A stretch of DNA of 64,000 nt. Source: Natrinema marinum. Lineage in GTDB: Archaea > Halobacteriota > Halobacteria > Halobacteriales > Natrialbaceae. Below the pieces are notes generated by a model. The model was not told the DNA's origin. It searched no databases and saw only the letters and a list, made by a program, of their open reading frames with translations. The stretch lies in assembly GCF_024296685.1 (NCBI RefSeq), contig NZ_CP100763.1:1984001-2048000 (forward strand), read 5' to 3'. Below are positions 1,691-23,987 of this stretch, in pieces. The translations under genes were made by a program, and so were the position numbers. Each line of letters begins with the position of its first letter. Position 1 is the first letter of the stretch.

Positions 1691-1712
1691 CTTGAATGCG
1701 ATACTCTCCCGT

Positions 1713-2957: not shown

Positions 2958-3697
2958 AGGCAGTCGTCCTACAACCGATGTACCTCCCTTGGTTGGGATA
3001 CTTTGGCATGATCGATCAGGCCGATGTTTTCGTATTCTACGATGACGTCCAGTTCAGTCGTGACTCTTGGCAGCAACGAAACCGTATAAAGGTCCCAGAA
3101 GCCAGTGGACAGACCGAGTGGTTAAAAGTCCCAGTGATTGAGGACTTCGGACAGGATATTAGATCTGTTCGAATCGACCAAGCCCGAGACTGGCAACAAG
3201 AGCACCTATCAACCATCAAATCTGCGTATGGTCCAAAATCGGTTCCATATGGATCAGCAAGTGCACCATACTTCGACGACTATATCCATTTACTCAACGA
3301 TATATATAATGAGGATTGGAAGTCATTGCGAGACCTAAATATACATTTAATAAAGAAATTATATGAAGAGTTGTCCATTGACGATGTAGAATTCTGTCTC
3401 TCGTCAGATTTTGATATCGATAGTAGTGGGACAGATAAGCTTATAAAGACTTTACAGCACATCAACGCTGATGAGTACATTTCTGGCCCTGGTGCGAAAG
3501 ACTACCTAAATGTAAACCAATTTGTCGAAAATGGCATATCTCTATACTGGCACGAGTTTGATCATCCCCGCTATAATCAATTATATGGTGATTTTGTATC
3601 CCATCTTTCAATAATTGACGCACTATTCAACGTTGGTGATGAACTGACTTCTCTAATTCGGACTGGAGAAGAAAACGCATTACTACAGGAGGCCTAA
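2954..3697 (+). CDS. WbqC family protein
   Basis: This 247-residue protein has the characteristic WbqC N-terminus 'VVLQPMYLPWLGYFGMI' followed by 'FYDDVQF' and 'NRIKV'. WbqC-like proteins are found in O-antigen and nonulosonic-acid clusters. Their biochemical role is poorly defined, though some are linked to acylation or amino-acid decoration of sugars. It is translationally coupled to the upstream sulfatase-like gene through an ATGA overlap. Its second half (from about 3300) is markedly AT-rich compared with the rest of the window, consistent with imported glycan genes. Confidence 0.85.
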   Translation: MKAVVLQPMYLPWLGYFGMIDQADVFVFYDDVQFSRDSWQQRNRIKVPEASGQTEWLKVPVIEDFGQDIRSVRIDQARDWQQEHLSTIKSAYGPKSVPYGSASAPYFDDYIHLLNDIYNEDWKSLRDLNIHLIKKLYEELSIDDVEFCLSSDFDIDSSGTDKLIKTLQHINADEYISGPGAKDYLNVNQFVENGISLYWHEFDHPRYNQLYGDFVSHLSIIDALFNVGDELTSLIRTGEENALLQEA

Positions 3698-3780
3698 CTG
3701 AGAGAGAATACGTATGTATTATTAATATATTTTATATACATTATTCGTCATAAAGCCTTCATCCAGCTAAACAACCATAT

Positions 3781-4758
3781 CTAAAACGCTTCGTAAACCC
3801 GTTTCGCTCCGTCTCCATCAACAACACCAGCCATACGCTCAAATAATGTTCTTCGCTTTCCGTCATCTTTCACCAGTGATTCAACTTCGGATAGAACTTC
3901 GTCATCGGTAGTGACGATACTAGCAAGTCCGTTCCGACGCAGCACCTCGGCCCGTTGCATCTGGTTATCAACTTGCGGTATCCCAACGAAAGGGGTTTGA
4001 ACGGCGAGCAGCTCAAACACAGTTCCGCCTACAGCACTCACTGCAAGATCCGCCCGCCGCATGAGTCCTGCCATGTTATCAGGAGAGCGTAATAGATTGA
4101 ACTGGGTAGAGAGCGATTCAGTCGCTCGCTCTATTTCTTCCGTATTCGAAAAGCCTGGCCCAATGACTACATCAACGGTTCCACTGAAATTTTGGAAAGC
4201 CTTCATAATATCGGGAGTTGCGTTTGATACGTCACTCCCGCCCATCGTGATCAGGGCCCGGGTCGGCTCTTGCTTCCAATTTGTATCTTTTTGTGTGGCC
4301 TCACGGAATTGTTCACGAAGAAGTACGTAGTCGGGCCCAAGCAGGAACTCCGGTTTTGTTCCGATCCATTCGTAATCAAGAGCGGGCGCATGCAGATCAC
4401 CGTAAACGAGAGCATCACAACAGACAGTATGATTCATATAGTTATGGCGAACAACGATTCTTGAATCACTCTGAGAGAGTGTTCGCTGATATTTTGTATC
4501 TGCTTCAAATAAATCTACAAAAAGTGTATCGATGGTACATTCGTTGAGTGCCTGCACCACTTCTGTTGGATCGTCCGCGGTGTCCAGTGTTTCCATCGTT
4601 ATGGGATCCGGTAGCGTTGTCGAGACAGAGTCAGGCGTCGTAGTAAAATATACGACAGTATCTCCCCGGCGAAGACACTCCGCCGCGATAGCACCTGTTC
4701 GAACCAAATGCCCAAATCCAATGGATGGACCACCATCGGCCCGAATTCCGACTCTCAT
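3781..4758 (-). CDS. pseG: PseG-like UDP-2,4-diacetamido-2,4,6-trideoxy-altrose hydrolase
   Basis: This 325-residue GT-B-fold hydrolase removes UDP from the activated diamino sugar before condensation with PEP. The N-terminal 'IRADGGPSIGFGHLVRTGAIA' contains the glycine-rich loop and the catalytic-type His of PseG. 'ITMGGSD' (~residue 175) and 'SAVGGTVFELLA' (~residue 240) are the nucleotide-binding C-domain motifs. Its ATG overlaps the TAA of the upstream cytidylyltransferase gene by one base (4758), so both lie on one minus-strand transcript. It converges with the WbqC gene across an 83-base AT-rich gap. Confidence 0.9.
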   Translation of the reverse strand: MRVGIRADGGPSIGFGHLVRTGAIAAECLRRGDTVVYFTTTPDSVSTTLPDPITMETLDTADDPTEVVQALNECTIDTLFVDLFEADTKYQRTLSQSDSRIVVRHNYMNHTVCCDALVYGDLHAPALDYEWIGTKPEFLLGPDYVLLREQFREATQKDTNWKQEPTRALITMGGSDVSNATPDIMKAFQNFSGTVDVVIGPGFSNTEEIERATESLSTQFNLLRSPDNMAGLMRRADLAVSAVGGTVFELLAVQTPFVGIPQVDNQMQRAEVLRRNGLASIVTTDDEVLSEVESLVKDDGKRRTLFERMAGVVDGDGAKRVYEAF

Positions 4759-5504
4759 TAGACGGTCTTCTGTTCTACGTGATCATTAATCTCCACAAGT
4801 CCGTTCTTGTCGATATACTTGATCACATCAGCAATGTCAATCATTTCCTCGTACTCTACCTCGCGATACACTGTCTCGAGCAGATGGTAATCAGCCGGTT
4901 CGTCAAGCGTGAGTCGGAGATCGGTACGATCCTGCAGCCATGGTTCATCAAATACCTGGTTGGACCCTAGGTTGGACAGCTCGAACGCTTCGGGATGCTC
5001 CCGGTAGTACGGTGTGACGTGCTCGCGATGACGAGGTTCAGTCGATTTAGCATTCACTTGCTCGAACGACTCGGCTGTAAAAACCTCGCATGACACTCCG
5101 CGAGGGAATGTTCGGTCGAAACCAGCGGACACATACTCTGCATCGCTTTCCCTGATACGCTGGATACTAGCGTCAATAAATCGTGGAGAGATGAGTGGGC
5201 AATCAGCCGTCACTCGGACGACGATTTCCGGTTCGTACTGCTCGACTACCTGTTCGAACCGACTCAGTACGTTCGATTCGCTTCCTCTGATGACATCCGC
5301 GCCAAACTTGGGTGCGTACTGTTCAATTACATCGTCCTGAGGTTCTGTGGAGGTTGCGACGACGGTATCGGTTACGGCGTCCGCGTGACTGACTCGAGTG
5401 ACGACATGTTCGAGTGCTGGCTGGCCGTTAAGTGGATACATGACTTTACCCGGGAGGCGAGTAGAGCCGATTCTGGCTTGAAGAACAGCAGTTATGTTTA
5501 CCAT
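4758..5504 (-). CDS. SpsF/PseF-like cytidylyltransferase
   Basis: This CMP-sugar synthetase-type protein of 248 residues activates a nonulosonic acid with CTP. The N-terminal motif 'LQARIGSTRLPGKV' is the nucleotide-binding signature, 'VRVTADCPLI' carries metal-binding residues, and 'HREHVTPYYREHPE' is typical of the SpsF/PseF branch. I use the ATG at 5504 because the family normally starts a few residues before the signature; a GTG at 5528 would add eight residues. Together with PseG it supplies the CMP-activated donor. PseF is likely, but a CMP-sugar of another kind is possible. Confidence 0.85.
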   Translation of the reverse strand: MVNITAVLQARIGSTRLPGKVMYPLNGQPALEHVVTRVSHADAVTDTVVATSTEPQDDVIEQYAPKFGADVIRGSESNVLSRFEQVVEQYEPEIVVRVTADCPLISPRFIDASIQRIRESDAEYVSAGFDRTFPRGVSCEVFTAESFEQVNAKSTEPRHREHVTPYYREHPEAFELSNLGSNQVFDEPWLQDRTDLRLTLDEPADYHLLETVYREVEYEEMIDIADVIKYIDKNGLVEINDHVEQKTV

Positions 5505-5822
5505 CGGTCCTTGCAATGGATCATTCACGGTGTGATTTACACTTACCGGTTTATGTTATCTCACAGAATATCGAATATGGTCAGTGGAGGACTATATGAA
5601 ATAACTGTGTAGTTGACAAATTCGCCGCCCCACAGAATGGCGGCGGATTCGCCTCGACCACCAACAGAATTTTTACCAGCGCCAATACATTTTCAATGAG
5701 TTAGAACATCATGACGTATCTGTAATCATTAGTAGTTTTATCCCCTCACCGATGGATCAAGTCTTGCAGACTTATGATTGATCTATTCTTTTTAACTATT
5801 ATAATTTTCATGATGTAAAATA
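5505..5822. other. AT-rich intergenic region
   Basis: About 320 bases separate the acetyltransferase gene from the cytidylyltransferase gene, both on the minus strand. I see no convincing gene. The region is strongly AT-rich apart from one GC-rich hairpin at 5623-5645. The minus-strand promoter for the cytidylyltransferase probably lies in the first ~60 bases, but no single box stands out. Confidence 0.5.
5623..5645 (-). terminator. GC-rich hairpin, possible terminator
   Basis: A perfect 7-bp stem CGCCGCC/GGCGGCG with a 9-base loop stands in otherwise AT-rich DNA. On the minus strand it is followed by AATTTG. It lies downstream of the acetyltransferase gene, so it could end that transcript. 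Archaeal termination usually relies on T-runs, so this assignment is tentative. Confidence 0.3.
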
Positions 5823-6443: not shown

Positions 6444-7883
6444 TTAGATGTACCCCATCTCACGGAGATGCTGTTCCGTTTCTTCTGCCAGCTTCGGTTC
6501 TTTTGGCGCAGTTTCAAATGGTTTACCCTCGGTTTCTAGCCATGTATCTAAGAACGAAGTAAGTTCCTTGTATATAGATGGATAGCTATTTTTAACATCA
6601 CTATTTTCATTAGGTAACTGATAGAGTTTCTTTTCCTCTTTTGTCTGTACGAGTTTAAACTCGGTTGTCCGAGCAGTTGTAATGAGAGACCGTGGAAGAT
6701 GCGAGAGGTCGATATCAGGGTTATACTGACGGATACGTTCGTAGTTCTGAGCCTCGTTATCGTCAACTGTACCACGCAAATCTTGGCTAACTGCAACATC
6801 ACGAGACTGCTGTCGTATGTCGTACCCTTGAAACTGAGACGTGTCAGTACCGACTAATGAAAGTATGGTATTCATTATATCAATATGCTGTGTGGGTCGT
6901 TCCGCATGGTGATCCACATCGTCAAGTCCGTAGGTGATAAGTGGAACATGGATCAAACCGTCGTGAAGTACCATATGATGTCCGAGGAGGCCATATTCCC
7001 CAAATAAATCACCGTGATCCGCTGTAATGACGATGATTGTATCCTCAAATCTCTTCTGGACGAAATCGAATAACTCCCCTACACATGCGTCCGTATATTT
7101 AATCGTTGCATCGTACATCGCATATAATATCTCTCGTTTGTCGTCTGAGAGCGGCAGTGCATTCGCTATCCACTCGTACATCTCGTCGTGCATACGCTGT
7201 GCGAACGTAACAGCCTCACCTATCGTCGCATTGATCTCGTCTACGTACTCGTCACGACAGGAAACCGGCGGAATGTATGGGTGATGGGGGTCGTTGTAGT
7301 GGACGTAACAAAAGAACGGTTCATCCATCTTTGAGACGCGACGCAGTTTCCGCTTCGTGATATCTGTCGTAAAGAAGGAATTCTGTTTCCCATGTTCGCC
7401 AGCATCTAGCGTCAAGCCTGGACCGTGCTTTCGCATCTTGAGACTATACTTAAGAAAGCTAGATCTGTACTGATGCGAGAACAAGTCTCGGATGCCTGAC
7501 GGAGATGACTTAATAAAATCATCAAATCGTTCATCAATTCCTTTCGCCTCACCTGCATATCCGTTTTCAGAGATACCGATAGTCCGATAGCCTTGTTTCG
7601 AGAGTAATTCCGGAGCAGTCTTCATAGATTTGGGAAGCATATCCCCCGAACTTGTCCCAATCATTCGGTGTCGAGATGGATATAAGCCTGTGAGCATAGA
7701 CGGAACTGACACCGGTGTCCGAGTGCTATGTGCAATTCCGTGCTTGAAATTAACACTGTTTACGTCGGAGGCGATTCGAGAGAGTTCAGGCGTCGTATCT
7801 CGCCGGTACTCATGGAGAGAAGTGTGATCAGCTCGAACACTATCAAGTGTAATCCAAAGAATGTTTGGTTGAGAGCGGGTCAT
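6444..7883 (-). CDS. Sulfatase-family hydrolase
   Basis: This 479-residue protein contains 'NILWITLDSVRADHTS' (N-terminal metal Asp), 'RTPVSVPSMLTGLYPSRH' (the nucleophile position appears to be Ser in S-x-P-S) and 'VITADHGDLFGEYGLLGHH' (C-terminal metal site). It is a full-length alkaline-phosphatase superfamily enzyme. The ATG at 7883 is chosen because the signature begins eight residues later; the upstream ATG at 7913 would add ten residues. It ends in '-EQHLREMGYI', closely resembling the C-termini of the other two superfamily members in this cluster, which suggests a shared ancestry or targeting feature. Substrate unknown. Confidence 0.85.
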   Translation of the reverse strand: MTRSQPNILWITLDSVRADHTSLHEYRRDTTPELSRIASDVNSVNFKHGIAHSTRTPVSVPSMLTGLYPSRHRMIGTSSGDMLPKSMKTAPELLSKQGYRTIGISENGYAGEAKGIDERFDDFIKSSPSGIRDLFSHQYRSSFLKYSLKMRKHGPGLTLDAGEHGKQNSFFTTDITKRKLRRVSKMDEPFFCYVHYNDPHHPYIPPVSCRDEYVDEINATIGEAVTFAQRMHDEMYEWIANALPLSDDKREILYAMYDATIKYTDACVGELFDFVQKRFEDTIIVITADHGDLFGEYGLLGHHMVLHDGLIHVPLITYGLDDVDHHAERPTQHIDIMNTILSLVGTDTSQFQGYDIRQQSRDVAVSQDLRGTVDDNEAQNYERIRQYNPDIDLSHLPRSLITTARTTEFKLVQTKEEKKLYQLPNENSDVKNSYPSIYKELTSFLDTWLETEGKPFETAPKEPKLAEETEQHLREMGYI

Positions 7884-7968
7884 AGTTATCTCGCTTGTTT
7901 CTCTCCTTATCACTGTTCTGGCTTAGAGATCCAAATTACTGTCGGGTCGGTAGAAATATTTATATAAT

Positions 7969-9507: not shown

Positions 9508-10533
9508 CTACCGATAACCGAGATCCCGGAGGTGTTTCTCTAAGTCTGTTTCTTCAGCCGTGTCTGGTCCTAAGTTCGGTTTCCGTGTTTCCATATCATT
9601 TGCTGATGTCGTTATCCAGGGTACTCTCTTCACAATAGGATGAGGGAACCCTTCTGGATGACCGTACGCTCCTAACTCTCCAAACGCTTCGCCGTGATCA
9701 GCAGTAATCGCAACGGTTTCAGCATTTATGTTTTCCAAGAGGGTTTCAATGTCATCAAGGACAAAACGGAGCGTCTCTTTGTACAGTCTATAGACTTCCT
9801 CATGTTCTGCATCACCAGTTTCGAGACGCTTGTATCCATCTCTTTCAATATCGGTTGGTGGCCGTCCCTCGCATACTGATTGACCGATATATGGCAGGTG
9901 TGGCTGCATGTAGTGCACTATCAGTTTATCGGGATTGTCTTGTCGCCCAGCCTCGATTGCGTGGTCAGTCATTACCCTTGGAAGAACCACGTGATAGGTG
10001 TCGTCATGGTAGTCTCGCCAGACCATATCTACTGCGTCAAACGTTGCCAAATCGACGAGATCCCATTTCGAGAAATCTATTGGTGTCGTATTGTTCTTCG
10101 GTGGCAGATCACCGCGTTCGAACAGCTGGCTAACGTGACCGTTTCCAACCACGTAGTGTGTTTGCTCTATTTCTTCGTGGTACGTTTCGGTAAATGTATT
10201 CGCCATCCACTCGTCCGACTGACTCCCGACTGACCATATCGTATCGATATCCTCAATGAAGTCGTACTCGTCCGCAACTTCGCGAAGCGTGTCAACCCGG
10301 CATGCATCGAGGATTATCAGGATGTCCCAGTCACGTTCGTAGACGTTCGTTCCGAATGGGATTCGCGACGTAACCGCATACCAGAGGATGAGATACCATG
10401 TATAAACAACGTAAAGAGGTGCTCGAGTCGGATTCTCACGAAGTTGTTCCCGCATCTCCGAGAGCCACTCCCGGACGTTTGTCTGCATGTATTCTCCATA
10501 GCAGAACGAACGGTAATGAGATAACCGATTCAC
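9508..10533 (-). CDS. Alkaline-phosphatase-like protein, third superfamily member of the cluster
   Basis: This 341-residue protein has an Asp-centred 'ILIILDACRVDTLRE' (~residue 90), a possible nucleophile region 'SVGSQSDEWMANTF', and a metal-site motif 'ITADHGEAFGELGAYGHPEG' near 285. It ends '-LEKHLRDLGYR', like the two sulfatases. A hydrophobic stretch near residues 40-60 ('LYVVYTWYLILWYAV') could anchor it. The start at 10533 overlaps the flippase stop by 4 bases (ATGA), favouring it over the internal Met at 10488. Haloarchaeal homologues of this type are usually left as hypothetical. Activity is inferred only from fold motifs. Confidence 0.75.
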   Translation of the reverse strand: MNRLSHYRSFCYGEYMQTNVREWLSEMREQLRENPTRAPLYVVYTWYLILWYAVTSRIPFGTNVYERDWDILIILDACRVDTLREVADEYDFIEDIDTIWSVGSQSDEWMANTFTETYHEEIEQTHYVVGNGHVSQLFERGDLPPKNNTTPIDFSKWDLVDLATFDAVDMVWRDYHDDTYHVVLPRVMTDHAIEAGRQDNPDKLIVHYMQPHLPYIGQSVCEGRPPTDIERDGYKRLETGDAEHEEVYRLYKETLRFVLDDIETLLENINAETVAITADHGEAFGELGAYGHPEGFPHPIVKRVPWITTSANDMETRKPNLGPDTAEETDLEKHLRDLGYR

Positions 10534-12294: not shown

Positions 12295-13479
12295 CTATTG
12301 ATCGCCTTTCTCAAACGTATCCCGATAATCCTCCCGCAGTTCTTTTGGAAAATCGCTTTCCTTCAGGTCCCGCTTAAACCGATCGTTGATTGATTGATTT
12401 GGATATTTGTTGTACGACTCCGGAGGGCTATCCGTTATCAATTGCTTTATACTCTTGAACGCCCCTTTCAGCAAGGGTTGGATGAACAGATTTTCGGAGT
12501 TCCTCTCCACCGATATAATGGCTTTTTCAGGTAGTGACTTCTCCTCCAGAAATTCTTTTATTTTCCGTATATCTCGGCCAAACGAATCGTCTGAGAGGAG
12601 ATACCATTTGAGTTCATCGTTAAATCTTTCGAGGTAGGCATCTAAACGTCGGAACAATTCATCGTCTGGCAACTCATAATCATCTAATAGCTGTTGAACA
12701 TACTCACCGTCGGTGATTCCGTAGTCCCTCAGGTAGTAGGATTGAAGAGCTTTTCCGAGCTCACTGGCGAAGTCCTCTTTAGCAATGTGGACTTGCCCGA
12801 ATGTGGGATTGTGAAACATTGGTCGGGCATCATTGGAAATCTCAGCGCTAGGTTTTCCGTCCCAGTGCTCCCGTTCTGCCCCATTTGTATACTGGTAAAT
12901 CTTCCCCCACCCAAATTTCGGGATACAGAGAAACGGGAGAATTTGGTGTATCCACGTCGGGGGTAATTCTAGAGGTGAATGCTCAAAGAGATTGACAGCG
13001 GCCGCATCTGCGGCATCAAACACCAAGAAGTTGTCTTCGAAACTACCCGGAGAGTATTTGTCCATAAATGCGCGAGTATTGCTAGGGAATGCGACAGAGT
13101 AGTTATTCTGTTCCATGTCCTGAATTAGGCTCTTGAATTCCTCTTCACTAAGCGGCCAGGCGTCGGCATGGAGATGCATTACATAATCAACATCGTCCTT
13201 AGCAAAGGCGGCTCTACAGGAGGTTCGGATCGAATCGTAGATACGAAAACTCAGGTTGTTTCTTGACCGAGAGACTGCCGAGAGATCGTCATATCGGATC
13301 TGCGCACCTTGCTCAAAGAAATCAATCTCTCCCTCAATCGCAGAGATTTTCTTGTGAGCATCAGGATGGTTTGAGCAGACCAAGATATAGTAGTCTTCTT
13401 CCCAATTATGACGGATGATATCTACCAAGACAGCTAGGTCGTCGAACTTATCGTACAGGGAGACAGCGATCGCGTTCAT
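12295..13479 (-). CDS. Uncharacterised protein, possible GT-A-type glycosyltransferase
   Basis: This 394-residue soluble protein starts 'MNAIAVSLYDKFDDLAVLVDII', followed near residue 95 by 'DVDYVMHLHADAWPLSEEEF', an arrangement reminiscent of the beta-strand and acidic metal site of GT-A transferases. No canonical family motif is recognised, so function is a guess from context. It overlaps the HAD phosphatase gene by 4 bases, making a four-gene minus-strand unit with the nucleotidyltransferase genes. It is AT-richer than the flanking core genome. Confidence 0.6.
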   Translation of the reverse strand: MNAIAVSLYDKFDDLAVLVDIIRHNWEEDYYILVCSNHPDAHKKISAIEGEIDFFEQGAQIRYDDLSAVSRSRNNLSFRIYDSIRTSCRAAFAKDDVDYVMHLHADAWPLSEEEFKSLIQDMEQNNYSVAFPSNTRAFMDKYSPGSFEDNFLVFDAADAAAVNLFEHSPLELPPTWIHQILPFLCIPKFGWGKIYQYTNGAEREHWDGKPSAEISNDARPMFHNPTFGQVHIAKEDFASELGKALQSYYLRDYGITDGEYVQQLLDDYELPDDELFRRLDAYLERFNDELKWYLLSDDSFGRDIRKIKEFLEEKSLPEKAIISVERNSENLFIQPLLKGAFKSIKQLITDSPPESYNKYPNQSINDRFKRDLKESDFPKELREDYRDTFEKGDQ

Positions 13480-13880
13480 TGATGGATTGCCTCTGCTTCT
13501 GCTTCTAAGAGTGATTCAATTTCGTCGCGGCTGTACTCCAGCAGTTCAGTCGGACGGATTGCTTTATCGTCGACATAGAAACCGTCATGTCCGCACCATG
13601 GTTTTCCGTAGTGAATCTCATCATGAGGAATTTCGTGCTCCTCCAGCCACTCTAAAAGGGTCTTCGCCGTGTCGGCGTTGATCCGCCCGAGACGGCCCTC
13701 GTGAGTATTCATATTCCGGGCTGTATAGAGAATGATGTAGTAGCCGTTTTCCTTATATTTCCGCAATTGCTCCACGACTTCTTCGTGGGGTTTTCGATCA
13801 GTATAGTCCAGTTCAGCGTCTTTTTTACAAATGACACCGTCTACATCGAATACAACCCGCTTATTCGGTCTAGGGTTCAT
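13476..13880 (-). CDS. HAD-superfamily phosphatase, capsular-biosynthesis type
   Basis: This 134-residue protein begins with the HAD motif I 'RVVFDVDGVICKKD', has motif II 'ILYTARN' and a 'HYGKPWCGHDGFYVDDKAIRP' C-terminal segment with motif III/IV residues. Small HAD proteins of this type accompany nucleotidyltransferases in capsule clusters and act on phosphorylated sugars or small phosphomonoesters. It is followed by the unknown gene with a 4-base overlap. It would act in the cytoplasm. Substrate unknown. Confidence 0.8.
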   Translation of the reverse strand: MNPRPNKRVVFDVDGVICKKDAELDYTDRKPHEEVVEQLRKYKENGYYIILYTARNMNTHEGRLGRINADTAKTLLEWLEEHEIPHDEIHYGKPWCGHDGFYVDDKAIRPTELLEYSRDEIESLLEAEAEAIHQ

Positions 13881-13918
13881 AATATCCTCTTACGACGGAG
13901 CCGTTACAAACTTACTGG

Positions 13919-15589
13919 TTACTCAAGATATGGCGCTACTTTCTCAATTCCCTGTGCAAGCATACACTGCTGCCGTGATGGACTATCTGCGTGCAACGGA
14001 ACCATGCTCAAAAATAACAAACCCTCGACCAGTTTCACCGTTTTGAGGCTAATCCCGTCACGTTCCTCAAGAAGTGCATCGAAATGCGATTTACGGGCTT
14101 TCTGACGGTCAGTGGTGTAAATCTCGTAGTCAATCGAAGCGGACTCTGGATCGTATGATGCAGAGAATCGACCATTGATAAGATGCTCGTAGTGTCCGGC
14201 GACACTATGACGCAGTTTCGCGACATCATATCGTGGATCGCCGTAGATCGTGAACTCCCCAAATTCCCCGCGTGGGTCGATGAGTTTCAGGATCCCGTTC
14301 CGAGGATCGTATAATATATTCGGGAAACAAAGATCGCCGTGGATTACGGAGAATTCTTCCTGATCGAGAAGGCCAACTGAATAGACAAGGTCCTCGATCT
14401 CCTCGAGAATCGTCGAAACATCGGGGTATGAGCGTCCATTAATGCAAACGCTTTCTGCTTCGAACATCGCGTCCGCACGACCACTATCGTGTAGCGCACT
14501 CAGCCGTCGTCGCGTTTTTGCGAGATAGATCTCCTTCAGCGAATTTTGAATGACAGACGAGGATGATTCCACCTTGAACTGTCGGAACTCGGCGAGCATA
14601 TCAAATAGCCGGTGGAATACGTTATCCCAGATATGGTCTCCGTGAGATCCGTACAGTTGTAGATCACTTAAGGACGGATAGCCGATATACTCCATCTCAA
14701 TGTAGGGGTCTTGAACGTCAGTTGACCAGTCGTAGAGACGTGGGAGATACGGCTGAAGTTGATTTGGAATCTGGTTATACCAGTTAATCTCGCTAATGAG
14801 CGTACTAGTATCGTCACTATGCTTTGCGATGACATTTTTCTCGTTGACCTCTAATTCGTTGAATTCACGGGCGTTCAGGAACTCTTTCGCCGCCCGGTGG
14901 TAGGTGTCTAGATGGCCGACATCTAACCAAACATCGGGCTCACGGAGAGAATATTGGTGGTCTGAGAGATAAGATAGTAAGCCTTGGTAGAAAGGATCAA
15001 GGCCCTGAGAATTAGTTTCAACGGCCACTTTAAGATCATCTTGAAAGGCTCTCGCATTTGTAATCCCAAACTGGCCGACGAATGTTGGGCGTGTCCCCTC
15101 ATCGACCGAGCTATACTTCTCTGTCACTGTATCGATCTCCCCACCCGAGATATCGAAAGTCGTCCATCGATAGGACCGATCTTCTTCTGTGTAAGATATG
15201 TAATCACGGCCAGAAACGCGCTGGACCGGCTCGACGAGGGTGTCTGCGAAATTGATATAAAGATCAGAATTGGCTAGCATTTCGACTGATAGGCTCTCGA
15301 GAGTTCGTAAAATAGTATCACCCACGCTGACCGTCTCGCCGACATCGATAACTTCCCACTCGTATGCACTCCGGTCGACGTACTCACGGATTAGGTCTCC
15401 CGACTCGGATACCGCAACGACCTTCGTCAAGTCGATTTCCTCATACGTGTCTGCGATTCGCTCGAGGATTGGTCGACCTTGGAGTGGAATCAGCCCCGTA
15501 GGAATCGAGCCGACGTCGAGACGCAATTCGTCAGGAACCAGCACCGCTGACGGAACGATTAAGATGTCTGTGGCGGATTGATCGAGCAT
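13919..15589 (-). CDS. Nucleotidyltransferase-like / APH-type kinase fusion (LicCA-like layout)
   Basis: This 556-residue two-domain protein has a sugar-nucleotidyltransferase-like N-terminus (~1-240), with 'GLIPLQGRPILERI' and 'SDLYINFADTLVE', but lacks the usual GxGxRL loop. From ~245 on it is an aminoglycoside-phosphotransferase/choline-kinase-type domain, with 'IHGDLCFPNILYD' (catalytic loop, ~residue 425) and 'KLIDPRGEFGEF' (metal loop). The start at 15589 lies 4 bases after the upstream nucleotidyltransferase stop. A kinase fused to a nucleotidyltransferase recalls LicC-LicA fusions that activate phosphocholine. The real substrate is unknown, and the N-domain may be catalytically weak. 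Confidence 0.7.
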   Translation of the reverse strand: MLDQSATDILIVPSAVLVPDELRLDVGSIPTGLIPLQGRPILERIADTYEEIDLTKVVAVSESGDLIREYVDRSAYEWEVIDVGETVSVGDTILRTLESLSVEMLANSDLYINFADTLVEPVQRVSGRDYISYTEEDRSYRWTTFDISGGEIDTVTEKYSSVDEGTRPTFVGQFGITNARAFQDDLKVAVETNSQGLDPFYQGLLSYLSDHQYSLREPDVWLDVGHLDTYHRAAKEFLNAREFNELEVNEKNVIAKHSDDTSTLISEINWYNQIPNQLQPYLPRLYDWSTDVQDPYIEMEYIGYPSLSDLQLYGSHGDHIWDNVFHRLFDMLAEFRQFKVESSSSVIQNSLKEIYLAKTRRRLSALHDSGRADAMFEAESVCINGRSYPDVSTILEEIEDLVYSVGLLDQEEFSVIHGDLCFPNILYDPRNGILKLIDPRGEFGEFTIYGDPRYDVAKLRHSVAGHYEHLINGRFSASYDPESASIDYEIYTTDRQKARKSHFDALLEERDGISLKTVKLVEGLLFLSMVPLHADSPSRQQCMLAQGIEKVAPYLE

Positions 15590-15593
15590 ATTG

Positions 15594-16322
15594 TTACTCA
15601 GTGCTTTCTGGATTAAAGCCGGGGTCAAACATGCGAAGGTCGTCCGGCGTTCCGAGAACGTGAACGCTCTCACTGTCGATTTGATGAGTTGTTACCTCTA
15701 GACCCTTCTCGATCAGATAGTTGTACAGCGGCGCGACGTACGTTTCGCCGTATTTTGACTTGACACTCGAGGCTGCGGCTTCGTACGCGTCGGCGAACGA
15801 GCCCCATTCTGCGAAGTGATAAAAGCCGACAGTCGCTTGGTCCGAGATCTTTTCCTTCTCTGAGACCCTGGTAACAGTTCCGTCTTCGTCTTTACGAACG
15901 AAACTCCAACGTTCGCCAGGTGTCTCGAAGACTGGGATAAACCCGTCTCCTGAAATATCGCTGGGCGAGATCTGGCCTGCCTCAATGTATGTATCGATAT
16001 TGTATATTACGACAGATTCAGAGTTGCCAATCAGCCGATCAGCGGCCATTGCCGTAGCTGCTTGGCCATTGGTATACTCATCAAGAGAGACCTCTTGGAA
16101 CGTCGAAATCCCGAGCCGATCGCACGCTTCTTCAAGGAACGATGCGGCGGCGTGTTCAGATTGCGTCACGAAGATAAACTCCGAATCAAAAAACATTTTT
16201 AAACTCTGCATCGCCCAGTCAAACATCGGTCGGCCCCTGACCGAAATCTCATGTTTCGGAATGGAGACACCGACGTTTCTGAACCGACTTCCCTTTCCGG
16301 CCATCGTAATCAGGACTTTCAC
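15594..16322 (-). CDS. Nucleotidyltransferase (NTP_transferase family)
   Basis: This 242-residue protein starts 'MKVLITMAGKGSRFRNVGVSIPKHEISVRGRPMFDW' in two recognisable blocks: the GxGSRF nucleotide loop and the P-K lysine region. 'VVIYNIDTYIE' near residue 105 supplies the metal aspartate. It is a glucose-1-phosphate nucleotidyltransferase-like enzyme of the small capsule type. Its intact loop contrasts with the degenerate one in the adjacent fusion protein, so this gene may supply the real transferase activity of the cassette. It leads the minus-strand unit. Confidence 0.78.
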   Translation of the reverse strand: MKVLITMAGKGSRFRNVGVSIPKHEISVRGRPMFDWAMQSLKMFFDSEFIFVTQSEHAAASFLEEACDRLGISTFQEVSLDEYTNGQAATAMAADRLIGNSESVVIYNIDTYIEAGQISPSDISGDGFIPVFETPGERWSFVRKDEDGTVTRVSEKEKISDQATVGFYHFAEWGSFADAYEAAASSVKSKYGETYVAPLYNYLIEKGLEVTTHQIDSESVHVLGTPDDLRMFDPGFNPESTE

Positions 16323-16814: not shown

Positions 16815-17556
16815 GGCACTGTCTAGTTAAGCACCTCCGCTGGCGTCTGTCCGTTAAGTGATTGGTGCGGTCGTTGTGTATTGTAGTAGTGTACGAACTG
16901 TTCAAGCCATTTTCTGACGCTCGCCCGACTGCCCACCCATGAATTATGGAAGCGGTCAACTCTCATCTTGAAGGTATGAAACCACTTTTCGATGAGGTTT
17001 CGATCAACGTAGTCGAGTTGACCGCTCAGCCCTAATCGAGAGAGGGCAGTCAGATAACCGTAGCCATCAACGAGAAACACCGTCTCGGAGAGATCGTGTT
17101 TCTCGGTCAGTTTATGCAGGAACGCAGCAGCCGGATCGGTGCCTCGTCGTCCGAACACTGCGACATCGAGAATCAGCCGCGAGTCTAGATCTATTGCAGC
17201 GTATACCCAAGACCATTTTCCGTTGATCTTGACAGCAGTTTCATCAATAGCGACCCGCGACGGCTTTGCCGTCGGCGGGTCTGGTACGCTGTCAGCCAGC
17301 CGATGTACCCAGTGCCAGATTGCTTGATGAGTGCGCTCTACGCCGATCAAGCGGAGAATTGCTTGTGTCTCTCGAAGCGAACAACCGGTCGCGTGAAGGC
17401 GGACGGCGAACACCCTAACGGGCGTCGCCGTCCGCTCACGCTCCCAACATTCATCAAATTCCGCCGCGTAGCCCTCGCTGAGCAGGTCTACGAGCATTGA
17501 TCCAAACTAACTCTACGACCTGCTCGCTTCTCAAACCGCACTAACTAGACGGTGCC
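16815..17556. mobile_element. Intact IS6-family insertion sequence (742 bp)
   Basis: Terminal inverted repeats GGCAC[TC]GTCTAGTTA mark both ends. The element is flanked by a perfect 8-bp duplication, TTTGAGGG, at 16807-16814 and 17557-17564, the usual IS6 signature. It contains one minus-strand transposase. Perfect ends and duplication indicate a fairly recent insertion. Confidence 0.92.
16823..17497 (-). CDS. IS6-family DDE transposase
   Basis: This 224-residue transposase is of normal length for the haloarchaeal IS6 group. An N-terminal helix-turn-helix region ('CSLRETQAILRLIGVERTH') is followed by the DDE catalytic core: 'VAIDETAVKINGKWSWVYAAID' (first D), 'VFLVDGYGYLTAL' (second D) and the C-terminal 'RNLIEKWFHTFKMRVDRFHNS' (E). 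It fills almost the whole element. The frame is intact, so it is probably active. Confidence 0.93.
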   Translation of the reverse strand: MLVDLLSEGYAAEFDECWERERTATPVRVFAVRLHATGCSLRETQAILRLIGVERTHQAIWHWVHRLADSVPDPPTAKPSRVAIDETAVKINGKWSWVYAAIDLDSRLILDVAVFGRRGTDPAAAFLHKLTEKHDLSETVFLVDGYGYLTALSRLGLSGQLDYVDRNLIEKWFHTFKMRVDRFHNSWVGSRASVRKWLEQFVHYYNTQRPHQSLNGQTPAEVLN

Positions 17557-18296: not shown

Positions 18297-19055
18297 ATGC
18301 AAGCAGTGGTTTTAGCAGCCGGAAAAGGTACTCGTCTCCGGCCGCTCACCGAAGACAAGCCCAAGGTCCTCGTCGAAGTTGACAGCAAGCCCCTCATCGA
18401 GGATGTCTTCGACAACCTGATCGACATCGGCATCACTGAATTCGTCGTTGTCGTCGGCTACCGGAAAGAGCAGATCATCGAGCGCTACGGCGACGAGTAC
18501 CGCGGCGCGCCGATTACCTACGCCCACCAGCGCGAACAGTTCGGGCTCGCCCACGCCATCCTCCAGGCCGAACCCCATATTGACAGCGACTTCGTCCTCA
18601 TGCTCGGGGACAACATCTTCCGGGCGAACCTTGGCGACGTGATCAATCGCCAGCAGGAAGCCCGCGCCGACGCCGCCTTTCTCGTCGAGGAAGTCCCGTA
18701 CGAGGAGGCCTCGAGATACGGCGTCCTCGATACCAACGAGTACGGTGAAATCGTCGAGGTCGTGGAGAAACCCGACGACCCGCCGTCGAACCTCGTCATG
18801 ACTGGGTTCTACACCTTCACGCCGGAGATTTTCCACGCCTGCCACCTCGTCCAGCCCTCGGATCGCGGTGAGTACGAACTGCCGGACGCAATCGACTTGC
18901 TCATTCAGTCCGGGCGGACGATCGACGCGATCCGCATGGACGGCAAACGGATCGACGTCGGCTATCCGGAAGACCGGGAACGCGCCGAGGAGTGGCTCGC
19001 CGAGCGGACGGCAGACCAGTCGGAAGAGCAGACGGCAGATGCGCCAGAACAGTAA
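18297..19055 (+). CDS. aglF: Glucose-1-phosphate uridylyl/thymidylyltransferase, AglF-like
   Basis: This 252-residue protein starts 'MQAVVLAAGKGTRLRPLTED' with the classical nucleotidyltransferase loop; 'KPKVLVEV' follows with the catalytic Lys, and 'FVLMLGDNIF' holds the metal Asp. In Haloferax, AglF makes UDP-glucose that AglM oxidises to UDP-glucuronate for S-layer N-glycosylation. The C-terminal remnant of an aglM gene directly behind it and an intact aglM 3.6 kb away support this role. The last ~20 residues are a Glu/Gln-rich tail outside the catalytic domain. A TATA box at -27 supports the start. Confidence 0.88.
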   Translation: MQAVVLAAGKGTRLRPLTEDKPKVLVEVDSKPLIEDVFDNLIDIGITEFVVVVGYRKEQIIERYGDEYRGAPITYAHQREQFGLAHAILQAEPHIDSDFVLMLGDNIFRANLGDVINRQQEARADAAFLVEEVPYEEASRYGVLDTNEYGEIVEVVEKPDDPPSNLVMTGFYTFTPEIFHACHLVQPSDRGEYELPDAIDLLIQSGRTIDAIRMDGKRIDVGYPEDRERAEEWLAERTADQSEEQTADAPEQ

Positions 19056-19187
19056 TCCGTCGTCACGACCAGCTGGCCCGAGTTCGATGACCGCACGTTC
19101 GACGTGATAGCCCAAGGAGCCGTCGACGGCCGGCGGATCGGCGTCAACGAGGACGTCTCCGAAGCGTACGAAGGCCTCACCTGGTAA
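19056..19187 (+). pseudogene. C-terminal remnant of a second aglM (UDP-glucose dehydrogenase)
   Basis: The last 43 codons read 'SVVTTSWPEFDDRTFD...' to 'EDVSEAYEGLTW' and stop at 19185-19187. They align with the end of the intact AglM in this window ('VVATDWPEFDDLTFE...', '-VYEGLTW'). No upstream part is left: the frame begins right after the aglF stop. It is diverged from the intact copy, so it is an older paralogue or an imported scrap rather than a fresh duplication. Confidence 0.8.
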
Positions 19188-19234
19188 CGACACGGTCGCA
19201 ATTGACTAACTAAGATCCCTCCATTCAGACGGAC

Positions 19235-19390
19235 ATGAACCACCTCGTAATCGGCGGTATAAGTTTCATTAGCCCCTCTATCGCCGAAGAACTCTTCGAA
19301 CAGGACCATGCTGTCGAGATGAGCGGCCATCCAATATCGTTCTCCGCATCTGCTTCGCGATCCGTCGGTTCAGTATTTCAGACCGCTTGA
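19235..19390 (+). pseudogene. N-terminal scrap of an NAD-dependent epimerase-like gene
   Basis: A 51-codon frame starts 'MNHLVIGGISFISPSIAEELF', which resembles the first Rossmann strand, glycine turn and helix of SDR-type sugar epimerases (usually VIGGTGFI). After about 30 residues it loses similarity and stops at 19388-19390, exactly where the VirB4-like frame opens. I read this as a junction between old chromosomal sequence and inserted plasmid-type DNA. Assignment rests on a short motif only. Confidence 0.4.
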
Positions 19391-19447
19391 ATCATCGCCG
19401 ATCTGCTCGAGGACGAACTCGTTGAGGAGGGACTCGAAGAGGGAGAG

Positions 19448-21355
19448 TTGCTCGATGATCTTACGGAACAGCACAAGCACGCAGTTGCACCGGCTGCGAT
19501 CGAGTGGGAGACCCGTACGGCACGCGTTGGCAACCAGTGGACGTCTACGCTCTACATCGCTGACTATCCCGATTATCCGAAAGACGGGTATCTCAACGAA
19601 CTGTTCGAGCTCACCGACGTTGAGTTCGACCTGACGGTTCACGTCACGCCGAAGAATCAACAGCAAGCACGCGACGAACTCCAGCGAGTCGCGGACGATC
19701 TCCGGGCCGATGCAGACCTCGAGAGAAGTGTTCGCGGTGCGTATCTCCAAGAACGAGCTGGTGAAGCGGTCTCGACCTACAAGTGCGTCGAGAACGGCAG
19801 CCGTGTGTTCGATCAGGGAACGTTCATCACGATCCGTGCGGAGTCGCGTGATCAGCTTCGAGATGCTGTCCGTACGATCAAGAGCCGACTCCGCGAGGAA
19901 CCGGCAGGGCTCACACCGAAGACGGCCATCTGTAAGCAGGACCTCGCGATCCAGGCCGCGGCACCGATCGGTCCGAATCCCTTTGGTCGGGAGGCAACGG
20001 CACTCGGCGGGGCTATTGGGGCACTGTTGGCGTCGCCGCACAACGCGACGATCCTCGAAGACGGCGGCGTCGAGTTTGGCGTCCACTGGCGGAATCAGAG
20101 CCCGGTCGTGATCGATCCCTTTGCTCGAGAAAACGGGTACGCGATGTTCACGATCGGAGATCCCGGTTCCGGGAAATCCTTCGGCTCGAAACAGAACTTC
20201 ATCCGCTCGATCGAGGATAGCGAAGATCGAATCGGGATCATCCTCGAGCCGTTGAATAACTGGGCGGGTGTTGCCGAAGCGCTCGGCGGAGAACGGATCA
20301 CGATTGGCGGGAACATGGGACTGAACCCGCTCGAGATCAAGCCCACTCCCGAACGGGTTCAGCGGGCGATGGGCGAAGACGCCAGTCCATATCGTGAGAA
20401 ACTGGACAGCGTGATGAGTTTCCTGTCAAACTACTTCGCCCTCCGCGGAATCAAACTCGGCGATCGGCGGACGACACTCGAGACGGCAATCGAGGAGGCA
20501 TACGCCCGCAAGGGAATCACCGACGATATCGCGACGCATCAAAATGAGAGTCCGACGATGCGTGACGCCCTCGATATCCTTCAGGGGATGGTCGACGACC
20601 CTGACGACTACGTCGTTCGGACACACGAAGAGATACTCAAAATCCGTGAGGACGCGACGTGGCTCATCGACCAATTACGACCGTTCGCCGAAGGCGGCCG
20701 CTATGAGAATCTCGGCCGTGAGACGGAGTTCGATATCCGTGATGAGAAGGTGATCTACTTAGATCTCGCCCAGCAGGAGGGGAGTCTCGGCGGCAGTACG
20801 AGCCTCATCATGCAACTACTGATTTCGTCGGTGTACGAACGTGCGAAAGAGACGGACAAGGAGGTCGTCTTCGTTATCGACGAGGCCCGCTACATCATGC
20901 AAGACGCAGCGAGTCTCGAGTACCTCGAGATCGTCTTCCGTCACCACCGACATCACAACCTCTCGATCCGACTCGTGACCCAGACCGTCGACGAGTTCTT
21001 CCAACATCCCGAGTCGGAAGCGATCATTGACCAGTGTGCGATCAAACAGTTCCACCATCTCGATGGAATGGACCGTGAGTGGGCCGACGAGTTCGGTCTG
21101 AACTCCGCGCAAATGCGCTTCGTCCAGGATGCGGTCCCTGGTAATGATTTAGCAGGTTATTCAGAGGCTCTCGTTGGCGTCGATGGCGAATGGCGCGGTA
21201 TAGAGATTCGGGCGTTAGCCCACGAGAAGGCGGTTATCGACTTCGATCCGAAGGTACAGTCTCGGTCCGAGTTGCCAGGTCAGTCTACTGATAGTGGTGG
21301 TGTTTCTGACCGCACCAAGGGTGGCGGTCAGAAGGGGAGACCCCTCTCTGACTGA
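19448..21355 (+). CDS. VirB4/TraC-like conjugation ATPase
   Basis: This 635-residue protein has a Walker A 'IGDPGSGKSFGSKQ' (~residue 238), a Walker B 'VVFVIDEARYIM' (~residue 473) and the helicase-like C-terminus of type IV secretion/conjugation ATPases, including the 'VTQTVDEFF' motif. Such proteins power DNA or protein export and are encoded on haloarchaeal plasmids and integrated elements. The frame is open back to 19391 with no ATG, and the start given is a TTG, so the N-terminus is uncertain and may be truncated at the junction near 19390. No VirD4, relaxase or integrase is nearby, so it is probably an orphan fragment. Confidence 0.82.
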   Translation: MLDDLTEQHKHAVAPAAIEWETRTARVGNQWTSTLYIADYPDYPKDGYLNELFELTDVEFDLTVHVTPKNQQQARDELQRVADDLRADADLERSVRGAYLQERAGEAVSTYKCVENGSRVFDQGTFITIRAESRDQLRDAVRTIKSRLREEPAGLTPKTAICKQDLAIQAAAPIGPNPFGREATALGGAIGALLASPHNATILEDGGVEFGVHWRNQSPVVIDPFARENGYAMFTIGDPGSGKSFGSKQNFIRSIEDSEDRIGIILEPLNNWAGVAEALGGERITIGGNMGLNPLEIKPTPERVQRAMGEDASPYREKLDSVMSFLSNYFALRGIKLGDRRTTLETAIEEAYARKGITDDIATHQNESPTMRDALDILQGMVDDPDDYVVRTHEEILKIREDATWLIDQLRPFAEGGRYENLGRETEFDIRDEKVIYLDLAQQEGSLGGSTSLIMQLLISSVYERAKETDKEVVFVIDEARYIMQDAASLEYLEIVFRHHRHHNLSIRLVTQTVDEFFQHPESEAIIDQCAIKQFHHLDGMDREWADEFGLNSAQMRFVQDAVPGNDLAGYSEALVGVDGEWRGIEIRALAHEKAVIDFDPKVQSRSELPGQSTDSGGVSDRTKGGGQKGRPLSD

Positions 21356-21360
21356 GAGTT

Positions 21361-22530
21361 ATGATTGACGAAACAGCAATCCCTGAGACACTGCGTTCTC
21401 GAGAGCAGTGGATCTGCTGGGAGCAAACCGAACGGGATGGAGAGACGACGAAGGTTCCGATCGACCCACAGACAGCAGAATTCGCATCGACGACGGACGA
21501 TCGAACGTGGAGCAGTCTCGAGACTGCGCTCGCGTATCTCGGGTCGAGTCCGACGGCAGCCAGTGGGATTGGATTCGTGTTTTCGAGCACTGATTCGCTT
21601 GTTGGAATCGATTTAGATGACTGTCGCGACCCAGCAACCGGTCAGCCAACAGAGCAAGCAAAGAGGATCATCAACCAGTTAGACTCGTATACCGAAATTT
21701 CACCATCAGAGACTGGCTATCACGTATTGATTCGCGGAGAGCTTCCAGCGGGTCGTAATCGACGTGGGCATGTCGAAATGTACGACCACGCCCGATACTT
21801 CACCGTCACCGGTGATCACGTATCGGGTACGCCGACACGAATCGAACACCGACAAGCTGACCTCGAGGAGATTCACGCGGCGTACGTTCGCGAAATCAAC
21901 GATGATGCCCACGAGATTCCATCACCGATGCCTTCGCCAGAGGGGGGTTCGGAACCGCTCCTTACGGACGACGAAATACTCGAGAAGGCACGAAACGCAT
22001 CGAATGGGGAGAAATTCGAGCGTCTCTGGAACGGGTCGACTGTCGGGTACGCGAGCCAGTCGGAAGCAGATATGGCGTTGTGTTGTCTCCTCGCATTCTG
22101 GACTGGTGGCCATGCTGTCCAAATGGATCGATTGTTTCGCCGATCCAGACTGGACCGTCCGAAGTGGTCTGAGGTTCACTACGCCGATGGCTCAACGTAC
22201 GGTGAGAAGACGATCGCTCGCGCAATCTCGCACACCTCTGAGTTCTACGAGCCTTCACGGACAGGCCAAGGCGAGACGAAGGGGCAGAACGGTGAGTCAC
22301 TGCGAGATCGTGAGCGTGTGTACCTCGAGGAGAAGTTCTCACTGCTTCAAAAGCAAACTACGACTCTCGAAACGCAGTTGGAGGAGAAGACCGCGCGTAT
22401 CGAGCAACTCGAGCGACGGCTCGAGATATATGAGGCAAAGCCGATGACTCGAGAAGCAACGCCTGACCCGTCGAAAGAAGATCAGTCGAAGTCTATCGTT
22501 CAGTGGATACAGAGGATTTTCGACCGATAG
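21361..22530 (+). CDS. PrimPol-like (phage NrS-1 polymerase family) replication protein
   Basis: This 389-residue protein contains an archaeo-eukaryotic primase-type core: 'VGIDLDDCRDPATGQ' (acidic motif, ~residue 81), 'SPSETGYHVLIRG' and 'HVEMYDHARYFTVTGDHV' (~residue 140-160). From ~190 a second helical domain ('ADMALCCLLAFWTGG', 'RLFRRSRLDRPKW') is typical of the plasmid/phage forms. Residues ~315-350 form a coiled coil rich in Glu and Leu. It starts 6 bases after the VirB4 stop, so the pair is one transcription unit. No helicase domain is present. Its partner and context are plasmid-type. Confidence 0.72.
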   Translation: MIDETAIPETLRSREQWICWEQTERDGETTKVPIDPQTAEFASTTDDRTWSSLETALAYLGSSPTAASGIGFVFSSTDSLVGIDLDDCRDPATGQPTEQAKRIINQLDSYTEISPSETGYHVLIRGELPAGRNRRGHVEMYDHARYFTVTGDHVSGTPTRIEHRQADLEEIHAAYVREINDDAHEIPSPMPSPEGGSEPLLTDDEILEKARNASNGEKFERLWNGSTVGYASQSEADMALCCLLAFWTGGHAVQMDRLFRRSRLDRPKWSEVHYADGSTYGEKTIARAISHTSEFYEPSRTGQGETKGQNGESLRDRERVYLEEKFSLLQKQTTTLETQLEEKTARIEQLERRLEIYEAKPMTREATPDPSKEDQSKSIVQWIQRIFDR

Positions 22531-22697
22531 TAGAAAAGAGAGAGAAGAGCGAGTGACTACTCGAGACGTGGTACGATCGGACGCCCTCGAGAGCTACGAA
22601 GACCCGACCTAGTGACGAGCTGGACACGAATCGATGGACCGAATCGGGTCCGCTCGAACCCAAAAACGTCTAACGTCCACCGCTCATCTCACGCCCT

Positions 22698-23987
22698 ATG
22701 AACGTCTCTATCGTCGGCAGCGGCTACGTCGGTACCACGATCGCCGCCTGTCTTGCGGATCTCGGCCACAACGTCATCAACGTCGAGATCGACGAGGACA
22801 TCGTCGCCAGCATCAACGCCGGCGAGGCCCCGATCCACGAGTCGGGCCTCGCCGAACGCATCGCCGCCCACGCGGGCACCACCCTCCGCGCGACGACGGA
22901 CTACGACGAAATCCGCGACACTGACGTCACGTTTCTCTGTCTCCCCACGCCTCAGACCGACGACGGCAGCCTCGACCTCGCGGTCATGCGCGCCGGCGCG
23001 GAGTCGCTAGGGCGAGCGCTGGCCGAGAAAGACGACGACCACCTCGTAGTCGTCAAGAGCACGGTCCTCCCGGGCACGACCGAGGAGGTGGTCGCGCCGA
23101 TCCTCGAGGCCGAGTCCGGCACCCCGATCGGCGAGGGGATCGAGGTCGCGATGAATCCCGAGTTCCTCCGGATGGGGACCGCCGTCGCGGACTTCCTCGA
23201 ACCCGACAAGGTCGTCCTCGGAACGGCGAGCGACGAGGCGGCCGCCACCCTCCGCGAGCTGTACGCGCCCATTCTCGACCGAGACGAAACGGACCTCGTC
23301 GAGACCGACATCCGCGAGGCCGAACTCATCAAGTACGCGAACAACGCCTTCCTCGCGGCCAAGGTCTCGCTGGTCAACGAGCTGGGCAACATCGCGACGG
23401 AGTACGACGCGGACGCCTACGAAGTGCTCGAGGCGGTCGGTCTCGACGACCGAATCTCCGAACGCTTCATGCGCTCGGGGCTGGGCTGGGGCGGCTCCTG
23501 TTTCCCGAAGGACGTCAACGCCCTGCGGGCCGGTGCGCGCGAGCAGGGATACGAGCCCGAACTGCTCGACGCGGTCGTCGACGTCAACGACGACCAGCCC
23601 CGGCGGCTGGTCGAGTTGCTCGAAGAACACGTCTCTCTCGAGGGGGCGCGCATCGCGGTCCTCGGGCTCTCGTTCAAGCCCGGCACCGACGACGTACGCA
23701 AGTCGCGCGCGCTGGACGTGATCGAGCACCTCCACGAGCGCGGCGCGACGGTCGTCGCCTATGATCCGGTCGCGATCGAGAACGTCCGACCCGACTACCC
23801 CGAACTCGAGTACGCCGACTCGGCCGACGGTGCGCTCGCGGACGCCGACGGGGCCGTCGTCGCGACCGACTGGCCCGAGTTCGACGACCTCACGTTCGAA
23901 GGGATGGCTCGCTCCGTCGTCGTCGACGGGCGCCGGATCGACGTCGACGAGGACGCCGTTGACGTCTACGAAGGGCTGACGTGGTAA
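22698..23987 (+). CDS. aglM: UDP-glucose 6-dehydrogenase, AglM
   Basis: This 429-residue UDP-glucose/UDP-ManNAc dehydrogenase has an NAD-binding 'IVGSGYVGTTIAACLADLGH' at the N-terminus, 'LVVVKSTVLPGTT', and a catalytic-Cys region 'GLGWGGSCFPKDVNAL' (~residue 258-273). Its C-terminal domain contains 'LGLSFKPGTDDVRKSRAL'. It oxidises UDP-glucose to UDP-glucuronic acid for the N-linked glycan. It is followed by AglJ on the same strand after a 132-base gap with its own promoter space. Codon use is strongly GC-rich, unlike the island on the left. Confidence 0.93.
   Translation: MNVSIVGSGYVGTTIAACLADLGHNVINVEIDEDIVASINAGEAPIHESGLAERIAAHAGTTLRATTDYDEIRDTDVTFLCLPTPQTDDGSLDLAVMRAGAESLGRALAEKDDDHLVVVKSTVLPGTTEEVVAPILEAESGTPIGEGIEVAMNPEFLRMGTAVADFLEPDKVVLGTASDEAAATLRELYAPILDRDETDLVETDIREAELIKYANNAFLAAKVSLVNELGNIATEYDADAYEVLEAVGLDDRISERFMRSGLGWGGSCFPKDVNALRAGAREQGYEPELLDAVVDVNDDQPRRLVELLEEHVSLEGARIAVLGLSFKPGTDDVRKSRALDVIEHLHERGATVVAYDPVAIENVRPDYPELEYADSADGALADADGAVVATDWPEFDDLTFEGMARSVVVDGRRIDVDEDAVDVYEGLTW

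Follow-up and report, generated by a model that had tools for sequence, protein, structure and literature searches.

The 64,000-nucleotide stretch of Natrinema marinum DNA analyzed here (hereafter, the window), which belongs to a 3.77-Mb genome assembled as one contig, carries on its minus strand three genes arranged head to tail. In minus-strand order they encode a nucleotidyltransferase (NTase), a protein in which a degenerate NTase domain is fused to a kinase domain, and a HAD phosphatase (Table 1), with gaps of 4 nt between the NTase stop codon and the fusion start and 38 nt between the fusion and the HAD gene. All three genes are present where a preliminary description of this DNA had placed them, and its reading of the loops, degenerate in the fused domain and intact in the second NTase, agrees with the sequence. 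The HAD gene is overlapped by 4 nt by a putative glycosyltransferase gene, and the unit is thus larger than the coordinates first given. The listed open reading frame of the fusion starts at 15673; homologues begin at the equivalent of the ATG at 15589, and we therefore took the fusion to be a protein of 556 residues.

Table 1. Genes, domains, and motifs of the cassette (window coordinates)
Feature	Coordinates	Strand	Basis
NTase, 242 aa, presumably the catalytically active one in the cassette	15594–16322	-	Intact loop; family and PDB matches
NTase intact nucleotide-binding loop, MAGKGSRFRNVGVSIPK	16254–16304	-	Sequence
Degenerate-NTase/kinase fusion, 556 aa	13919–15589	-	AlphaFold2 pLDDT 94.6, pTM 0.91; two-domain fold matches to phage proteins
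N-terminal NTase-like domain, nucleotide loop lost, D116 and D223 kept	14879–15589	-	Fold alignment to GlmU
Degenerate loop region, PSAVLVPDELRLDVGSIPTGLIP	15485–15553	-	Sequence and 90-locus comparison
APH-type kinase domain	13922–14878	-	Pfam APH; AlphaFold2 pLDDT 96.1, pTM 0.93; Foldseek
Kinase catalytic loop HGDLCFPN, residues 417–424	14318–14341	-	Homologue alignment
Kinase metal-site motif IDPRG, residues 437–441	14267–14281	-	Homologue alignment
HAD phosphatase, 134 aa, EcbF-BcbF type	13476–13880	-	TIGR01689; PDB 1xpj, 9iqw
HAD motif I (DVD)	13839–13847	-	Sequence
Putative glycosyltransferase, 394 aa, which likely uses the activated product	12295–13479	-	Weak Pfam match; haloarchaeal neighbors

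The setting is a glycan island, as had been proposed, and the most likely role of the unit is to activate a group destined for surface glycans. GC content is 44 to 51% at approximately 2 to 18 kb of the window versus 57 to 71% from 18 kb on, and an IS6-family transposase gene (16823–17497) lies just past the cassette, where the low-GC island meets its GC-richer flank. Positions 7–5528 hold genes for a sialic-acid-like sugar, encoding a PseC-like aminotransferase, a NeuB/PseI synthase, a PseG-like hydrolase (above cut-off), and a KdsB-like cytidylyltransferase. The same island holds three alkaline-phosphatase-superfamily proteins (1692–2957, 6444–7913, and 9508–10533), with sulfatase or weak phosphoethanolamine-transferase matches. 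At 18297–23987 are AglF (UDP-glucose pyrophosphorylase, above cut-off) and a gene that by eye resembles those for UDP-sugar dehydrogenases, and between them are open reading frames that, again by eye, resemble a conjugation-type ATPase and a primase.

Domain identities of the encoded proteins

The loop of the separate NTase reads MAGKGSRF...PK, and its residues G9, R13, P22, and K23 are invariant across 29 homologues. This protein matches the NCBIfam model Arch_glmU at E = 8e-13, with a score far below the cut-off, and the families matched by most of the 29 homologues are sugar-1-phosphate NTases (Arch_glmU, 25; rmlA_long, 17). Its nearest solved relative is PDB 4evw (E = 3e-35 with the single sequence, 4e-87 with a profile), whereas LicC (1jyk) came last of 24 entries in the profile search of the PDB (E = 7e-4). 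A match to the MurU model (E = 6.6e-5) covers 43 residues and scores 22.9 bits, short of the cut-off of 250. By these sequence matches, the NTase appears to belong with sugar-1-phosphate enzymes and 4evw.

The HAD protein matches TIGR01689, a family of capsule-biosynthesis phosphatases, over model positions 2 to 124 of 126 (E = 3e-44), and its score of 149.9 bits is under the curated cut-off of 162. Among solved structures it matches 1xpj (E = 2e-38) and 9iqw (E = 4e-8), and the latter can be assigned to the phage type because the HAD of phage JS10 matches it at E = 5e-54. The catalytic motifs are kept, with D12, D14, T53, K93, D104, and D105 invariant in seven homologues. The closest solved relatives of the window HAD and NTase, 1xpj and 4evw, are presumably both Vibrio cholerae proteins. 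The EcbF/BcbF capsule phosphatases belong to the same HAD family over the full length, and the three-gene cassette recurs in bacterial capsule and lipopolysaccharide (LPS) loci. The window version differs in that its HAD falls below the curated cut-off, its glycan context is archaeal, and its neighboring glycosyltransferase is not WavE.

That glycosyltransferase matches Pfam Glycos_transf_2 at only E = 0.019. Homologues adjoin two other haloarchaeal cassettes, in genomes G182 and G333 (45% and 36%), and in G333 (locus L143) the homologue sits within the cassette. Only a fragment is present in locus L009, from Halobacterium sp. TGN-42-S1, and no homologue lies in the stretch examined of the G056 locus, and so this gene is absent or fragmentary in two of five haloarchaeal loci. 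It is likely the best candidate user of the cassette product, and the proteins adjoining cassettes across loci are mostly glycosyltransferases. We considered WavE as a common partner and rejected it, since it accounts for 11 of 111 adjacent proteins and is unrelated to the haloarchaeal glycosyltransferase (hhalign probability 0.3).

Searches with the whole fusion by VIA-align and Foldseek mostly probed its NTase domain; the kinase domain was modeled and searched separately. The fused NTase domain has a GlmU-type fold (Z 23.9, rmsd 2.5, 223 residues aligned), and LicC is also among its fold matches. Where GxGxR...PK would be expected, it carries PSAVLVPDELRLDVGSIPTGLIP. Residues D116 and D223 are invariant in all 72 aligned sequences and, by likeness to GlmU, may be metal-site positions.

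In the kinase domain, residues H417, G418, D419, C421, and N424 of the catalytic loop and D438, R440, and G441 of the metal-site motif are present in 78 of 78 homologues, as are K256, K358, R362, K458, H461, and H533. The window kinase matches Pfam APH (E = 6e-5) and has no match to Choline_kinase (PF01633) at E 0.1. Among 72 homologues, APH is matched by 64 and Choline_kinase by four, weakly (best E = 0.0017). The top Foldseek match of the kinase model is 5-methylthioribose (MTR) kinase (E = 4e-7), an anomeric pentose kinase. VIA-align gave Z scores of 18.1 for APH(2'')-IIIa, 17.7 for MTR kinase, and 17.0 for LicA (4r77; rmsd 3.4 over 241 residues), so that LicA stands approximately 1 Z below the best matches and level with APH(4), MTR kinase, and maltokinase. 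Because all five score between 17.0 and 18.1, the fold does not name a substrate; sugar, aminoglycoside, and choline kinases as classes are not separated (Z 16 to 18). We noted no AmgK structure in the list of kinase fold matches, an absence that carries no weight. Judged from its residues rather than its fold, the kinase is a distinct APH-like branch. The preliminary description had named clustering with sugar or aminoglycoside kinases, together with the absence of such a group from glycans, as the outcome that would count against a phosphocholine role; the family matches bear out the first of these, the clustering, and the fold leaves LicA level.

Distribution of the cassette and state of the fused loop

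Scanning genome contigs with the fusion recovered at least 536 confirmed relatives, and we analyzed the loci of the best 80 of these by using partner profiles built for this study. The three functions are adjacent, in varying gene order, in 63 of these 80 genome loci; 14 others lack a recognized HAD, two lack an NTase, and in one, at a contig end, only the fusion is present. With locus L002, five plasmid loci, the window, and three phages added, the trio is adjacent in 70 of 90 loci, and the proposal that the three genes form one unit therefore cannot be put down to chance. The HAD and NTase are fused into one protein in five loci (three from Nitrososphaerota, one from Lokiarchaeota, and one from a Devosia metagenome-assembled genome [MAG]). 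A plasmid search with the fusion returned eight records. Separately, an identical copy of the fusion is present on plasmids of four of 5,426 Escherichia coli genomes (L005, which is NZ_CP103510.1; H9–H12), in a capsule-like locus, and one of the four genomes is ST131.

Within the class, full-length matches were found in five of 391 haloarchaeal genomes; 14 of 391 have a match at E 1e-3, nine of them only partial. Among the first 100 relatives, the count was two. In a quick kinase tree with many weakly supported forks, the five haloarchaeal sequences form one clade (SH-aLRT 98) that falls among lineages of bacteria and is separate from the Nitrososphaerota clade. The patchy occurrence and the placement of this clade suggest transfer, the direction of which is not given by the tree, and the cassette was probably acquired by haloarchaea in this way. 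The expectation that such a cassette would be unusual in archaea thus holds for haloarchaea, but Nitrososphaerota and a Lokiarchaeota MAG have relatives as well. No sugar-making gene is common to the five haloarchaeal loci. A distant NTase–kinase fusion with an intact loop lies beside a different HAD in the haloarchaeon G120 (L097; L144:9376–11623), with no second NTase in the stretch examined.

We compared the state of the fused loop, scored as intact if GxGxR...PK was present, with the occurrence of the second NTase in 127 loci. Intact loops are found in four loci without and none with a second NTase, degenerate loops in 89 loci with and one without, and kinase-only proteins in 18 loci with and 10 without; five further loci were set aside because contig ends lie too near the fusion (three degenerate, one intact, one kinase-only). 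The association between loop state and second NTase gives a Fisher p value of 1.6e-6 when descent is ignored. On the tree, only two changes are needed to explain the pattern, and well-supported branches yield a single independent pair, which does not suffice for an independent-pairs test; the searches, moreover, were seeded with the degenerate type. In a second, viral set of 25 loci, 21 have intact loops, representing three lineages, and none of these has a second NTase in the stretch examined. Of the other four, EcS1 and Maestro have near-intact loops, RB69 has a split gene, and the last locus lacks the full fusion. Loss of the loop from the fused NTase probably accompanied takeover by a second NTase, in few independent events. 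The fused domain was probably once the activating domain itself and became noncatalytic or regulatory after that takeover.

Relatives in phages and viral contigs

Searches by tblastn returned 253 phage records with the window fusion and 351 with the fusion of S-SRM01. In RB69, a T4-like phage, and in EcS1 and Maestro, the fusion lies in a row with genes for a SIS isomerase and a HAD of the EcbF type, and JS10 has the fusion and the HAD. By fold, the window fusion matches RB69ORF052c (E = 3e-13) and ORF053c (E = 1e-5), and homology to the HAD of the phage module is found at E = 8e-25. RB69-type modules (ORF055c, ORF53_52c, ORF051c) therefore resemble the window cassette in combining a homologous NTase–kinase fusion and a HAD in one operon. 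They differ in having an arabinose-5-phosphate-isomerase-like SIS gene, in the intact or near-intact loop of their fused NTase, in lacking, over the stretch examined, a second NTase of this family, and in placing their product on DNA. No SIS match was found in the window; elsewhere in the host genome there are eight matches in four open reading frames of 605 to 675 aa, the nearest approximately 3 kb upstream of the window start.

As described by Thomas et al. 2018 (PMC6024577), RB69 DNA is arabinosylated, and ORF53_52c and ORF055c were proposed to supply UDP-arabinose. The full arabinose pathway of RB69-type phages is still called uncharacterized in a June 2026 paper (PMC13390438). In a 2025 report on phage Thanatos, TH1_063 made UDP-xylose, and no activity was found for TH1_060, the fusion homologue (PMC12838424).

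Among 34 viral loci from IMG/VR, 15 have the kinase with both DHBP synthase (often fused to an NTase) and transaldolase, or 11 after removal of near-copies, and neither partner is present without the other. These contigs (L110, L112–L119, L121–L124, L127, and L128; for example, L112:2592–6130) mostly carry the HAD as well, and their product may be an unusual sugar. Because the viral kinase occurs either with a SIS isomerase or with DHBP synthase and transaldolase, different sugar-making enzymes appear to feed the same core, and the core trio seems to accept their various products. In a phage-like setting (L058:9977–11822), the usual NTase is replaced by a PF01467 cytidylyltransferase-like gene, which accompanies a kinase-only member and a HAD. 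Two phage genes annotated as phosphoheptose isomerase (L089:6596–6994 and L146:6186–6545) encode EcbF-type HAD phosphatases.

Proposed function of the cassette

We consider it fairly likely that the cassette serves sugar activation, in which a sugar phosphate is converted to an NDP-sugar for the neighboring glycosyltransferase and thence to a surface glycan. The cellular loci lack sugar-making genes and their neighbors are mostly glycosyltransferases, which points to a precursor from central metabolism. The HAD would dephosphorylate this sugar phosphate, the APH-type kinase domain would phosphorylate the sugar at its anomeric hydroxyl, the separate NTase would couple the resulting sugar phosphate to a nucleotide, and the adjacent glycosyltransferase would use the NDP-sugar for the surface glycan. 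We infer both the individual reactions and their order, and the HAD and kinase steps may be reversed, as in the heptose pathway. That pathway, GmhA–HddA–GmhB–HddC, comprises an isomerase, a kinase, a phosphatase, and an NTase. The window cassette follows the same logic, but by Pfam and fold its kinase is of the APH rather than the GHMP type, and it has no isomerase. Certain findings fit sugar activation less well: 14 of the 80 genome loci lack a recognized HAD, TH1_060 gave no activity in the Thanatos study (PMC12838424), the five haloarchaeal loci share no sugar-making gene, and the kinase fold scores do not favor any class. Our literature search, with subscription papers and preprints mostly outside it, found neither a tested activity for any enzyme of the cellular cassette nor a paper giving the cassette a function.

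The sugar could be guessed to be a furanose or ketose, such as fructose. Fructose is present in the V. cholerae core, E. coli K4, and Pasteurella multocida B/E. It is also found in the Campylobacter jejuni HS1 capsule, and in Table 4 of PMC7901785 the only trio-sized genes are in the HS1/8 insertion, where CJSA_1353–1355 of IA3902 are consecutive and encode 240, 507, and 132 aa, a likeness to the trio by size alone. According to that table, HS1 has fructose without trio-sized genes; NDP-fructose was therefore set aside as an established product, and fructose as the cassette sugar is only a guess. The CDP-glucitol pathway of C. jejuni HS:5 was also rejected as a template, as it has a single NTase and a reductase, unlike the trio.

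The preliminary description had likened the layout to LicCA and to the activation of phosphocholine or a similar small group. In a LicCA-like system, the kinase would act on choline or a comparable amino alcohol, CDP-choline would be made by the NTase, and phosphocholine would be placed on glycans. LicA, LicC, and LicCA do pair a kinase with an NTase for glycan decoration and have folds related to those of the window proteins, as the presence of LicA and LicC among the fold matches attests, and a few kinase homologues have the weak Choline_kinase matches given above. However, the window proteins appear to belong to other sequence families, with an APH rather than a Choline_kinase match and an NTase that came nearest 4evw in the PDB profile search. 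A search of the host genome found no Choline_kinase match and no LicD (PF04991), the latter with a search that was positive in two control genomes. The 25 adjacent-gene families listed include glycosyltransferases and no LicD, and we know of no Lic system that includes a HAD. The phage relatives are moreover tied to arabinose (PMC6024577). Collectively, these observations do not uphold the phosphocholine layout, which we regard as very improbable.

Activation of a polyol or small hydroxy acid phosphate, with transfer of the phospho-group as in teichoic-acid-like polymers, is unlikely. CDP-glycerol glycerophosphotransferase-family genes do lie near the cassette on E. coli and Phaeobacter plasmids, and L058 replaces the NTase with a member of PF01467, a family that includes glycerol-3-phosphate cytidylyltransferase; but polyol phosphate activation needs no phosphatase and kinase pair, the isomerases of the phage arm make aldose phosphates, and the NTase is nearest to sugar-1-phosphate enzymes. 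Quite unlikely, too, is a salvage route in which free sugars, taken up or recycled, are activated as by AmgK–MurU, itself an APH-type kinase paired with an NTase. The shared pairing and the MurU match speak for salvage, but that match is short and far under its cut-off, the conserved phosphatase implies a phosphorylated precursor, and the 25 adjacent-gene families listed include no conspicuous sugar transporter.

Beyond sugar activation as such, a tentative and rather doubtful extension is that archaea, many bacterial phyla, and phages have one NDP-furanose pathway in common. Its sugar would be arabinose in DNA-arabinosylating phages and, in cellular loci including the present one, a ketose, for example fructofuranose. 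The loop-less domain, its acidic metal-site positions kept, would be a regulatory pseudoenzyme partnered with the active NTase, much like GMPPA with GMPPB.

We conclude that the cassette is a real unit with broad conservation, that the haloarchaeal example is a new instance of a widespread, probable sugar-activation cassette, and that a tempting phosphocholine annotation is thereby corrected. If the proposed function is right, the cassette would account for the origin of the donors from which glycans of archaea, bacterial capsules, and LPS receive unusual sugars. It would also tie the cellular cassette to the arabinose supply of RB69-type phages, a question that could be tested with three soluble enzymes.
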